Positions 30,606-34,733 of a stretch of 64,000 nt of DNA are shown one piece after another. The translations under genes were made by a program, and so were the position numbers. This DNA comes from an uncultured Nitrosospira sp. Its GTDB lineage: Bacteria; Nitrospirota; Nitrospiria; Nitrospirales; Nitrospiraceae. The stretch is from positions 62,001 to 126,000 of the forward strand of contig CAADGK010000056.1 of assembly GCA_900696515.1 (NCBI GenBank), given 5' to 3'. How positions within the stretch are numbered: the first letter of the stretch is position 1; each line of letters starts with the position of its first letter. The notes under the pieces were generated by a model that saw nothing but the letters and a program-made list of their open reading frames with translations, did no database searches and was not told where the DNA came from.

Positions 30606-31046
30606 ATGAACGGGATTATGCTGACATGGTGCTTTCGGCTTCTGACCGGTGGTGTGCTTCTGGCCTCTGCCTTGGGAAAGTCACTTGACCTTCAGGGGTT
30701 TGTCGACGTGTTAGCCACCTATCGTCTGTTCCCAGACCGGTCACTCTGGCTGCTGGGGCTTGGGATCACGGGGATCGAGTGGGGGTTGGCAGCGTGGATT
30801 CTTGTCGGATGGCGATTGCCGACGGGAGCACTTCTGGCGATGATGTTGAACGGTCTCTACGCCATCGGGCTCATCGTCACGCTCCTTCGCGGCCTCGATC
30901 TTCCAAACTGCGGATGCTACGGCGTATTCTTCCCGCAACCGTTGCGATGGTATTCTCCACTCGAAGACCTCGTGCTGGTTGGCATCTGCTATGCATTGTA
31001 TGCCGGTACCCAGGCAAGTGATACGACTCTTGACAAGGTTGCCTAA
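30606..31046 (+). CDS. MauE/DoxX-like membrane protein
   Basis: 146 residues from the ATG at 30606. Four hydrophobic segments are visible: CFRLLTGGVLLASALGKSLD, WLLGLGITGIEWGLAAWILV, LLAMMLNGLYAIGLIVTLLRG and LEDLVLVGICYALYAG. The short motif LPNCGCYG after the third helix is a MauE/DoxX-type cysteine pair that may exchange disulfides. MauE is involved in methylamine dehydrogenase maturation, but no such dehydrogenase is nearby, so only the fold is assigned. Confidence 0.78.
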   Translation: MNGIMLTWCFRLLTGGVLLASALGKSLDLQGFVDVLATYRLFPDRSLWLLGLGITGIEWGLAAWILVGWRLPTGALLAMMLNGLYAIGLIVTLLRGLDLPNCGCYGVFFPQPLRWYSPLEDLVLVGICYALYAGTQASDTTLDKVA

Positions 31047-31160
31047 TGGGCGTAATGAAAAAAGTGCGGCCCATCTATCAATCGAAGTTCGAGAGATCGG
31101 GTAGACCGCGCGGCTGCCATCCAGGTCTCTCGATGACGTCATCATGAGAGGAGGGTGGAA

Positions 31161-31375
31161 ATGAATGACACAACGCCACCTGGCCCATCAGGCCCACCAA
31201 TACCGAGGTGGGTTTCTCGTCGGTCCTGCTAGCCGAGTTCTTCGCCGGCTGTGCCGTGGAGGCACATGGTGCGCTTCCGAGGAAGCCCAAAGGCCATGGA
31301 GCGGAGGAGTCTTTCGGTTGCAGGAGGACACAAGTACCTGGGATTGACGAGGTCTCCCTCGACTGGAAGCCATAG
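31161..31375 (+). pseudogene. Frameshifted small gene (about 71 residues) of unknown function
   Basis: A strong ribosome-binding site GAGGAGGG (31148-31155) precedes ATG 31161, which encodes MNDTTPPGPSGP and then meets a stop in this frame. The -1 frame carries on as well-formed protein sequence (TNTEVGFSSVLLAEFFAG, then CAVEAHGALPRKPKGHGAEE, ending DEVSLDWKP at the TAG 31373-31375). Adding one C to the CCC at 31193-31195 joins the two cleanly. So this is a one-base indel, a sequencing error, or programmed frameshifting. The codons of the second part are GC-rich at third positions, as in neighbours. Family unknown. Confidence 0.6.
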
Positions 31376-31445
31376 ATCGCTGGTATTGTGTGGGTCTCGT
31401 GGGCCGCGACAAAACAGAATAATGTCGGCGTCCTAAGCGCCAAGT

Positions 31446-31489
31446 CACGGGCGACCTCCCACCTCAGTGCAAGGTCGCCCGTGTTTTTT
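31446..31489 (+). terminator. Strong rho-independent terminator
   Basis: Perfect 12-bp arms CACGGGCGACCT (31446-31457) and AGGTCGCCCGTG (31472-31483), followed by six Ts. It ends the transcript carrying the small frameshifted gene at 31161-31375, about 70 bp downstream of that gene's stop. Confidence 0.93.
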
Positions 31490-31631
31490 GAACCCACAAG
31501 TGCCCCCACATCTGATCGACGTACACGATAGTTCCGGTAAGCGTTTCTTTTTTCGGGCCGCTGTCCTACCTTGTTTCTGCGCTGAGGGCCCCTTTAGAAT
31601 AATTCGTCGTGCGTGCGGTAAGGAGGACATG

Positions 31632-31979
31632 ATGAGTCTCGCTGATCAAAAGTGTGTGCCCTGTCGTGGGGGCGTACCCCCCGTGCCAAATGATCGTGCT
31701 CAGGCCTTGCTGAAGGAGTTGGGGCGAGGGTGGTCGATGAATGCTCAAGGGCATCTCGAACGACTGTTTACGTTCCCAGATTTTGCGCAAGCATTGGCGT
31801 TTGTGAACAAGGTGAGTGCCATTGCGGAGGTCGAAGGCCATCATCCCGATCTGTATTTGGCCTGGGGGAAGTGCAAGGTCGAAATCTGGACACATAAGAT
31901 CAATGGCCTGACCGAGAGCGACTTCTATCTGGCGGCCAAAGCTGATCGGGAATTCGAACCCTTCCGGGCAGGTGCCTAG
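31632..31979 (+). CDS. phhB: Pterin-4a-carbinolamine dehydratase
   Basis: 115 residues from ATG 31632; AAGGAGG (31620-31626) is five bases upstream, whereas the ATG at 31629 is too close. The family motif EGHHPDLYLAWGKCKVEIWTHKINGLTESDF contains the His-His-Pro-Asp of PCD/DCoH enzymes, which recycle the oxidised tetrahydropterin cofactor. There is no aromatic amino acid hydroxylase in the window, so the partner may be molybdopterin metabolism or be encoded elsewhere. The N-terminal CVPCRGG is an unusual C-x2-C addition often seen in this group. Confidence 0.9.
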   Translation: MSLADQKCVPCRGGVPPVPNDRAQALLKELGRGWSMNAQGHLERLFTFPDFAQALAFVNKVSAIAEVEGHHPDLYLAWGKCKVEIWTHKINGLTESDFYLAAKADREFEPFRAGA

Positions 31980-32062
31980 CCCTCATGATTTTTAACGACG
32001 AACTGATTCGAACAGGCTGAGGCCGAGGTTAAGTCTGACTGGAGTGTAGGCTCCTCACCCTT

Positions 32063-32079
32063 AGCCTTAACCTTGACCT
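32063..32079 (-). repeat. 17-bp dispersed repeat, copy 1
   Basis: On the minus strand this reads AGGTCAAGGTTAAGGCT. A second copy with one mismatch lies at 48923-48939 on the plus strand, directly before the TPM gene start. It occurs between phhB and the radical SAM gene, next to a short dyad (GGTTAAG/CTTAACC). Function unknown. Confidence 0.5.
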
Positions 32080-32125
32080 TCATGAAGCTGGCGACGCATT
32101 GCAATCCCTGGCTACGAGGCAGCAG

Positions 32126-33976
32126 ATGAGCGACGGAACACAAGTGGCGCTCGTCAACATGCCGTTCAGTTACGCCAAGTATCCCTCCATTCAGCTCGGC
32201 ACGCTCTCTGCCCTGCTCAAATCCAATGGAATTCCCGTCGACTGTCATCACTTGAACGTGCGATTCGCCCATCTGATCGGCGCGGAGTTGCACGAGTCGA
32301 TCTGTGAGAAACGGGCGCTCTTTGGCGAGTGGCTGTTTTCCTCCTTGCTGTTTAAGGAGAATTCGAAACGGGCGGAGTATCCGAAGATCTTCAAGCCGGT
32401 GTTCGAACAGGCGTCGCAAGAGAGTGGGAAGCCGATCGGATATTTCGAGGAGATGGCCACCCGCATCGCACCTCAATTCTTAACCTGGGCGCTGCGGTCA
32501 ATTGATTGGGGACGATACAAATTGGTCGGTTTTACCTCGACGTTCGACCAGAACGTCGCGAGCCTGACAATGGCCAAGTTGATCAAGGATCTCTATCCGG
32601 AGATCGCGATTGTGTTCGGTGGCGCGAACTTTGATGGAGAAATGGGGCTTGAACATCTGCGGGCGTTTCCCTTTATCGATTATGTGGTGATCGGGGAGGG
32701 CGAACAGACCTTTCTCCCGTTTGTCCGCGAGATCCTCGACGGCCATATGGACCACATTCCTGATGGCGTTGCCTATCGGCAGGGAGGACAAATCCGCTTC
32801 ACACCGAATCCGACGCTCTTCTCCAATTTCACGAAGACCGGACCACCCGATTACGACGATTACTATCACCTGCTTGCGGAACTCGGTCAGACAACACAGG
32901 GTTTGGACCGCATTTTGCTGTACGAAGGCTCACGCGGCTGTTGGTGGGGCGAGAAGCATCACTGCACGTTTTGTGGGCTTAATGCGCAGAGCATGAAGTT
33001 CCGAGCGAAGAAGCCGGAGCAGGTCTTCGCAGAGATTGCTGAGCTCTCTCAGCGCTACGATGCGGTCCGTTTTCGGTTGGTCGATAACATCATCGACATG
33101 GGGTACATCGACAATCTGTTCGGAAAACTGGCAGAAAACCATTGTGATCTGGATGTCTTTATTGAAACCAAGAGCAATCTGCAGAAGCGCCAGATCAAAA
33201 CTTTGGCCGCCGGTGGGGTGAAGTGCATGCAGCCGGGGTTGGAAAGTTTGAGTCTCAATCAGCTCCGTGCGATGGACAAGGGCGCCACACCGATGCAGAA
33301 CATCGTCTGTCTCAAGTGGAGCTTCTATTACCATGTGACGGTACTGTGGAATATCTTGCTGGGGTTTCCGGGAGAGACGAACGAGGACTACCAACGCCAG
33401 CTTGATCTAATTCCGTCACTGCTCCATCTCCAGCCACCAGAAGCGACCGGCAAGTTCTGGCTGCAACGGTTCAGCCCCTACTTTACCAGACCTCATGAGT
33501 ATGGCGTTCGTATCATCGGGCCGGGTCTGGCCTATCAATACGTGTACGACGCAAAGCAAGTCGATCTGAAGAAGATTGCCTATGACTTCGAGCATGAACT
33601 GGATAAATGGCCAGTGGATCCCCATCTGTATCAGGAACTGGTTGCTGCAATTGAAAGCTGGCAGCGCATGCATAAGTTTGGAGAGAAGCCCTTCCTGTAT
33701 TACTCCAAAGCGCCGAACTACGTCACGATCTACGACGGGCGTAATCCGAACCGGCCGGCTCGCCGGCGATATGAAGGGGTGGCGGCACTCGTCATTGAAA
33801 TCTGCAACGAGTCAGGCAAAAGCATCGAGCAGATCCGAACAGCTGTGGCAGACAAAACCGATTGTAGTGAGGCGACCCTCAAGCCAATCCTTGACGAGCT
33901 GATGGCTTCACGGATGCTCTACGAAGAGCGTGGTAAGTATTTCACTCTGGCAGTCCCTGAAAATCCATATCTCTGA
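32126..33976 (+). CDS. B12-binding-like radical SAM protein of the RiPP-maturase group
   Basis: 616 residues from ATG 32126. The N-terminal cobalamin-binding-like Rossmann region includes VGFTSTFDQNVASLTMAKLIKDLYPEIAIVFGG and VVIGEGEQTFLPFV. The radical SAM core has an unusual cluster motif C272-x7-C280-x2-C283 in GSRGCWWGEKHHCTFCGLN, distinctive of the ribosomal-peptide maturation radical SAM protein 1 group; LGFPGETNEDY follows. The C-terminal 75 residues are a small winged-helix-like domain (possible precursor-recognition). Known relatives modify bacteriocin-like precursors, often by C-methylation. No confident precursor gene is adjacent, so its substrate is open. Confidence 0.82.
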   Translation: MSDGTQVALVNMPFSYAKYPSIQLGTLSALLKSNGIPVDCHHLNVRFAHLIGAELHESICEKRALFGEWLFSSLLFKENSKRAEYPKIFKPVFEQASQESGKPIGYFEEMATRIAPQFLTWALRSIDWGRYKLVGFTSTFDQNVASLTMAKLIKDLYPEIAIVFGGANFDGEMGLEHLRAFPFIDYVVIGEGEQTFLPFVREILDGHMDHIPDGVAYRQGGQIRFTPNPTLFSNFTKTGPPDYDDYYHLLAELGQTTQGLDRILLYEGSRGCWWGEKHHCTFCGLNAQSMKFRAKKPEQVFAEIAELSQRYDAVRFRLVDNIIDMGYIDNLFGKLAENHCDLDVFIETKSNLQKRQIKTLAAGGVKCMQPGLESLSLNQLRAMDKGATPMQNIVCLKWSFYYHVTVLWNILLGFPGETNEDYQRQLDLIPSLLHLQPPEATGKFWLQRFSPYFTRPHEYGVRIIGPGLAYQYVYDAKQVDLKKIAYDFEHELDKWPVDPHLYQELVAAIESWQRMHKFGEKPFLYYSKAPNYVTIYDGRNPNRPARRRYEGVAALVIEICNESGKSIEQIRTAVADKTDCSEATLKPILDELMASRMLYEERGKYFTLAVPENPYL

Positions 33977-34376: not shown

Positions 34377-34733
34377 TTAGGCATTGCCGGGAGGGATCGG
34401 GTCGACTTGAGCCAGGGCTTTGGAGAATCGCTCACCGACGATGTCGGTTGCTTTCGCCATGAGATCCACCACTTCTTGCCACTCAGCGGGCAGCAGGTCT
34501 TGCTTTAACTGCGGATGGATGGCCCATTGGGCTTCAACCTGTGTGCCCTTGCGGCTCACGAGGATACGGAGTAATTCCACTTCCCATGTTGGATCACCCG
34601 GATTGTCACTGGACGCTGGGGTATTCGGTTGTTCAGATGGAGGAACGGCGCGTGCCATGAGATCCTTTGTCGCTAAATCGTAGGACCAGCATACCGTATC
34701 CTCGGTCGGATTGTATATCCGCGTGACGGACAA
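34377..34733 (-). CDS. Hypothetical protein
   Basis: 118 residues: MSVTRIYNPTEDTVCWSYDLATKDLMARAV, a polar linker (PPSEQPNTPASSDNPGD), then a predicted alpha/beta region (WEVELLRILVSRKGTQVEAQWAIHPQLKQDLLPAEWQEVVDLMAKATDIVGERFSKALAQ). No signal or membrane segment. Not recognised; it sits between the AhpD-like gene and the IMPase gene on the same strand, and is likely a real gene on codon character. Confidence 0.6.
   Translation of the reverse strand: MSVTRIYNPTEDTVCWSYDLATKDLMARAVPPSEQPNTPASSDNPGDPTWEVELLRILVSRKGTQVEAQWAIHPQLKQDLLPAEWQEVVDLMAKATDIVGERFSKALAQVDPIPPGNA

Follow-up and report, generated by a model that had tools for sequence, protein, structure and literature searches.

What does a protein from a family named for RiPP maturation do in nitrite-oxidising bacteria? 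The question is raised by a gene for a B12-dependent radical-SAM (rSAM) protein in the window, by which we mean the whole stretch of 64,000 nucleotides analysed here. Taken at its word, the family name would imply a natural product in nitrite oxidisers, which the members of this order, in all likelihood Nitrospirales, would be; the evidence favours a core enzyme of nitrifier physiology. Our main reading, to which we assign a probability of about 0.45, is that the protein is a former RiPP methyltransferase that has been recruited to modify a cellular protein, the favoured target being nitrite oxidoreductase (NXR) or a maturation protein. The features of the locus are collected in Table 1.

Table 1. 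Features of the rSAM locus, with positions counted from the first letter of the window
Feature	Position	Strand	Remarks
Conserved TTGACA hexamer in front of the RNA, promoter-like	31030..31035	+	
Conserved structured RNA, ~430 nt	31055..31489	+	Covariation; no Rfam match
23-codon ORF MNDTTPPGPSGPPIPRWVSRRSC, ATG at 31161, inside the RNA	31161..31232	+	All 29 homologues keep its Shine-Dalgarno sequence and ATG
Intrinsic terminator of the RNA	31447..31489	+	GC-rich hairpin, then six T
Pterin-4a-carbinolamine dehydratase (PCD), upstream partner gene	31620..31979	+	Active-site motif intact
REP-like palindromic insert in the PCD-rSAM gap	32015..32081	.	Gap of 146 bp in the window against 30-45 bp in most relatives
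B12-dependent radical-SAM C-methyltransferase gene (P0001)	32126..33976	+	TIGR03975 homologue, 616 aa
N-terminal cobalamin-binding-type domain, residues ~7-250	32144..32875	+	Partial PF02310 match; AlphaFold model
CX7CX2C [4Fe-4S]/SAM cluster motif GCWWGEKHHCTFCGLN	32939..32974	+	C272, C280, C283
C-terminal winged helix, RRE/PqqD-like, residues 518-616	33677..33973	+	pLDDT 91

The rSAM reading frame begins with an ATG preceded by a GAGG ribosome-binding site, and in a profile search its product is covered in full by the model TIGR03975 (rSAM_ocin_1; RiPP maturation radical SAM C-methyltransferase), with a score of 601.4 bits over 1-606/606 against a curated cut-off of 281.85. This bears out the family call of the first-pass annotation, which had rested on the CX7CX2C cluster; the cluster is present as described, the motif is identical in 56/56 orthologues checked, and the arrangement is that of PoyB, PoyC and the bottromycin enzymes (PMC5682303, PMC11285071). 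The AlphaFold model (pLDDT 90.5) has its best structural matches in the B12 radical-SAM enzymes OxsB, TsrM, TokK, CysS and MgmA, and PF02310 gives a partial match to the N-terminus, at 28.4 bits below its gathering cut-off of 32.1.

The C-terminal 99 residues are modelled as a winged helix, the class of fold (beta-beta-beta-alpha-alpha-alpha) expected of a PqqD- or RRE-type domain. The top Pfam family for this domain is PqqD, at E=0.0022, which lies below the cut-off and is matched by 6 of the 17 sequences scanned. The RRE of TbiB1, which binds lasso-peptide leaders, spans the whole domain with a Z of 8.3, a score tied by unrelated generic winged helices. Matches to TAL-effector repeats in a sequence-profile search of the PDB were judged spurious, and the sole relevant row, at E=1.1, was a member of the PqqD family. 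The earlier suggestion that the C-terminus may recognise a leader is supported to the extent that the winged helix resembles an RRE; given a sub-threshold PqqD match and a tied TbiB1 score, leader recognition by the modelled domain is plausible but unproved.

Orthologues sharing at least about 59% identity are present in 192/235 genomes of the order (a total that includes a handful of genomes represented by no more than a fragment or a more distant paralogue) and in 35 of its 37 genera, usually as a single copy. In a phylum-wide sample, identity falls from ~59% inside the order to 36% outside it, the latter being the next best match in a sample that contained no orthologue from beyond the order. 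When placed in a tree together with RiPP-type members from many phyla, the order's orthologues form one clade (SH-aLRT 100) that has short branches inside and is set apart by a stem of 2.59 substitutions per site. At 20 positions the clade is fixed for residues unlike the RiPP-type consensus, including Y401 for E, W445 for R and I557 for Y. Divergent paralogues carried by a few genomes of the window's genus (L039, L050, L051 and L052) group with the RiPP-type members. The rSAM gene is a vertically inherited single-copy core gene of the order, and the long stem followed by short internal branches is the pattern that recruitment to a new, constrained role would be expected to leave.

The gene is present in three families of the order (f1, f2 and f4) and absent from a fourth (f3). 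Within the window's own genus, 19 of the 79 genomes have no orthologue, many of them near-complete, and two rSAM-less or truncated loci retain remnants of the gene. The short remnants, in L097 and L105, lie at the syntenic site and suggest recent decay or deletion.

That the protein is a genuine RiPP maturase, with a precursor elsewhere in the genome and outside the known leader families, seems to us unlikely. Its membership of TIGR03975 and the RRE-like domain that it has kept would both suit such a role, and precursors may be unlinked and unannotated; however, strong conservation and vertical inheritance across the order are unlike RiPP enzymes, and the searches for precursors gave no support. 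The NHLP leader (TIGR03793) scored over its curated cut-off in 0/79 congeneric genomes; the same search in genomes with RiPP-type relatives produced matches in 20/43, eight of them over the cut-off. In five congeneric genomes NHLP matches stayed below the cut-off and were discounted as precursors, since they lie in frames of 210-248 aa with two matched segments, as fits nitrile-hydratase-type proteins. Nif11 (PF07862) was likewise found in 0/79 congeneric genomes, with a positive control that matched, and in 51 loci no small ORF (at least 25 aa, within 6 kb) is conserved beside the rSAM gene except known neighbours and shadow frames.

One congeneric genome, G056, contains a RiPP-like cluster (L039:9961-16132) with two radical-SAM genes, an S8-type peptidase and three ORFs with the common start M[RK][LI]PxQ[SA]AG, which is possibly a new leader type. 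Its position beside a RiPP-type paralogue counts in favour of a genuine maturase with an unrecognised leader; as a precursor signal for the order's own enzyme it was rejected, G056 being the only one of the 79 genomes to have the leader.

The first-pass annotation had singled out a split ORF at 31161 as the only nearby candidate for a precursor. The ORF exists, with the start and length given in Table 1, but it sits in a conserved structured RNA missing from Rfam (no match at E<=1) that is neither a tRNA nor a tmRNA. The structure comprises 103 predicted pairs, with 97% of cells paired in 29 homologues and 32 pairs changed on both sides; sliding the structure as a control reduces pairing to 39-47%. 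No ORF is common to the homologues across the whole element. Searches with a model of the 5' domain give exactly one copy per genome in 90 of the family's genomes, some of which lack rSAM, and the RNA is missing from many genomes that carry rSAM. Wherever RNA and PCD share a contig, the RNA lies upstream on the same strand, 0.4 to about 12 kb away. Because the enclosing RNA stays where rSAM has been lost and is missing where rSAM is present, the ORF was rejected as the rSAM precursor.

The ORF has features of its own: its start, MxDxTPPGPSGPP, is largely kept and contains a PPG motif, and its frame shows a higher share of synonymous single-base codon differences (1280 against 1417 non-synonymous) than the other frames do (488:2281 and 797:1848), a comparison in which RNA pairing constrains the same bases. 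Judged from its sequence, the RNA with its proline-rich leader ORF may represent an undescribed RNA family.

The earlier picture is borne out in part. The statement that there is no obvious precursor agrees with the NHLP, Nif11 and small-ORF searches, but the new peptide natural product that was envisaged sits poorly with them and with a core gene that has its own clade. A position outside the RiPP group in a phylogeny, and the lack of a co-occurring short ORF, had been named in advance as observations that would tell against the proposal. Both are largely what we find, since the orthologues make up a separate long-stem clade with vertical core inheritance, no precursor was detected and the 31161 ORF belongs to a structured RNA.

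NXR makes most of the nitrate on Earth, and it is to this enzyme that the gene order in some deep lineages points. In two deep-branching genera (L196, 7688-12479; L197, 8406-13203) the order is nxrA-nxrB-rSAM, followed by genes for two small proteins of 109 and 128 aa that are about 90% conserved and belong to no known family. NxrA at these loci is a molybdopterin oxidoreductase of 1145 aa with a Tat signal, and NxrB is a protein of 429 aa whose top hit in the PDB is 7b04, 'Nitrite oxidoreductase subunit B' (E=2e-175). A third locus, L195, which lies at a contig end, has the C-terminus of NxrB directly upstream of rSAM. A terminator-like hairpin separates nxrB from rSAM in 3/3 of these loci (L195, L196 and L197), so that a single nxrAB-rSAM operon would be too strong a description and we speak of adjacency rather than of a proven operon. 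The adjacency is confined to one small clade of three genomes from two deep genera.

The distribution among families is consistent with a link to NXR. Among the Nitrospirales, NXR occurs in the families Nitrospiraceae, UBA8639 and NS-4, with UBA2166 alone lacking it (PMC12342949); the same paper lists 140 genes diagnostic for NXR-bearing members, and the term 'radical SAM' is absent from its text. The families f1, f2 and f4 would then be the NXR-bearing ones and f3 would be UBA2166. That f3 is probably the NXR-less family fits with its being the sole family without rSAM and with the lack of any match to NxrA in the searched portion of one f3 genome, 1.13 Mb or about 59%, in which control genes were found; a query with NxrB against the same portion returned one weak partial match of ferredoxin type.

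Two considerations count against a functional link. If the 19 congeneric genomes without rSAM have NXR, as their family predicts, then the enzyme is dispensable for NXR; and any gene gained after the NXR-less family had split off would give the same distribution profile. We found no report of C-methylation of NXR, and the paper on the structure of NXR from Kuenenia does not contain the words methylation or post-translational. A related alternative is that the rSAM enzyme modifies a different protein, conserved in these bacteria but with no connection to NXR. A core gene that has no one fixed neighbour across all lineages might be expected to behave in this way, but the adjacency to nxrAB and the co-distribution at the level of families favour NXR, and we regard another such protein as an improbable target.

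The most frequent neighbour of rSAM is PCD, whose active-site motif was confirmed by inspection of the sequence. PCD is closely linked to rSAM in 45/51 loci, and rSAM lies directly 3' of it in most lineages, even where all other neighbours differ. The REP-like palindrome in the intervening gap occurs also in L068. PCD was rejected as an obligatory partner, as it persists where rSAM has been lost and is unlinked in several deep lineages. At rSAM-less loci (L094, L098, L099, L100, L102, L103 and L104), FGE-sulfatase-like genes are found between PCD and an AhpD-like gene; such genes flank rSAM in some other genomes too, and the PCD-AhpD-like site therefore looks like an insertion spot. A protein of 118 aa belonging to no known family (34377-34733, minus strand) is encoded near rSAM in 40/51 loci. 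In another lineage (L074, L076, L078 and L079) rSAM is followed by an HTH/PBP_like regulator, an SBP_bac_11 (ModA-type) protein and further conserved ORFs.

The least likely explanation, in our view, is that the enzyme and PCD act together in molybdenum-cofactor metabolism, the methylated compound being a pterin or some other small molecule. In favour are the closeness of the pair in most lineages, the ModA-type neighbours in another lineage, the Moco role assigned to COG2154, the PCD family (PMC3223725), and the presence of PCD in a genome where no aromatic amino acid hydroxylase was found that would explain it. Against it, PCD is kept in genomes that lack rSAM and the two are not linked in deep lineages, the TIGR03975 relatives have peptides as substrates, and the RRE-like domain has been kept.

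The reading that we prefer, a former RiPP methyltransferase that now acts on a cellular protein, would imply the following history and chemistry. A RiPP-maturing enzyme would have been recruited once, in the ancestor of the order's nitrite-oxidising families, after which the gene became fixed as a single-copy core gene and its service to a RiPP cluster ended. By the chemistry of the family, the predicted activity would begin with methylation of cob(I)alamin by SAM; cleavage of a second SAM would yield a 5'-deoxyadenosyl radical that abstracts a hydrogen from an unactivated carbon, and the methyl group would pass from cobalamin to that carbon. The predicted substrate is most likely a stretch of some conserved cellular protein that would be presented by way of the retained RRE-like winged helix.

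Each element of this choice has its own grounds. A substrate of polypeptide nature is suggested by the retained winged helix; on the genetic evidence, a cellular protein is likelier than a natural product; and Mmp10 and MgmA, two enzymes that C-methylate methyl-coenzyme M reductase (MCR), provide the analogy that puts NXR or a maturation protein at the head of the candidates (PMC8828468, PMC11796369). By the same analogy NXR itself may be the substrate, although we hold this narrower proposal to be doubtful; that NXR bears an as yet unseen C-methylated residue, installed by a B12 radical-SAM enzyme that once matured RiPPs, is a shade more doubtful again. Were NXR or a maturation factor the substrate, bacteria would have an equivalent of the MCR methylations, and a need for vitamin B12 in nitrite oxidation would have a direct biochemical explanation; with NXR itself C-methylated, nitrite oxidation would be tied to the supply of cobalamin.

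Among known systems, TsrM, TokK, OxsB and CysS have the same fold as the rSAM protein in the N-terminal domain and the radical-SAM domain (Z about 17-22), but at 13-18% identity and in alignments that leave out its C-terminal winged helix; their substrates are small molecules or carrier-bound. The RiPP enzymes of TIGR03975 (PoyB/PoyC-type) share with it homology over the full model, the CX7CX2C motif and a domain order that ends in a putative RRE-like winged helix. They differ from the order's enzyme in that the latter is single-copy and vertically inherited, has no precursor that we could find, and occupies a separate long-stem clade marked by Y401, W445, I557 and 17 other fixed substitutions. 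In the role we propose, the nearest parallel lies with MgmA (TIGR04014) and Mmp10. The rSAM protein is no member of TIGR04014, scoring 42.5 bits against a cut-off of 360, and its protein target is putative; what it would share with both is the character of a B12 radical-SAM C-methyltransferase that is carried in core genomes and directed at a large metabolic enzyme.
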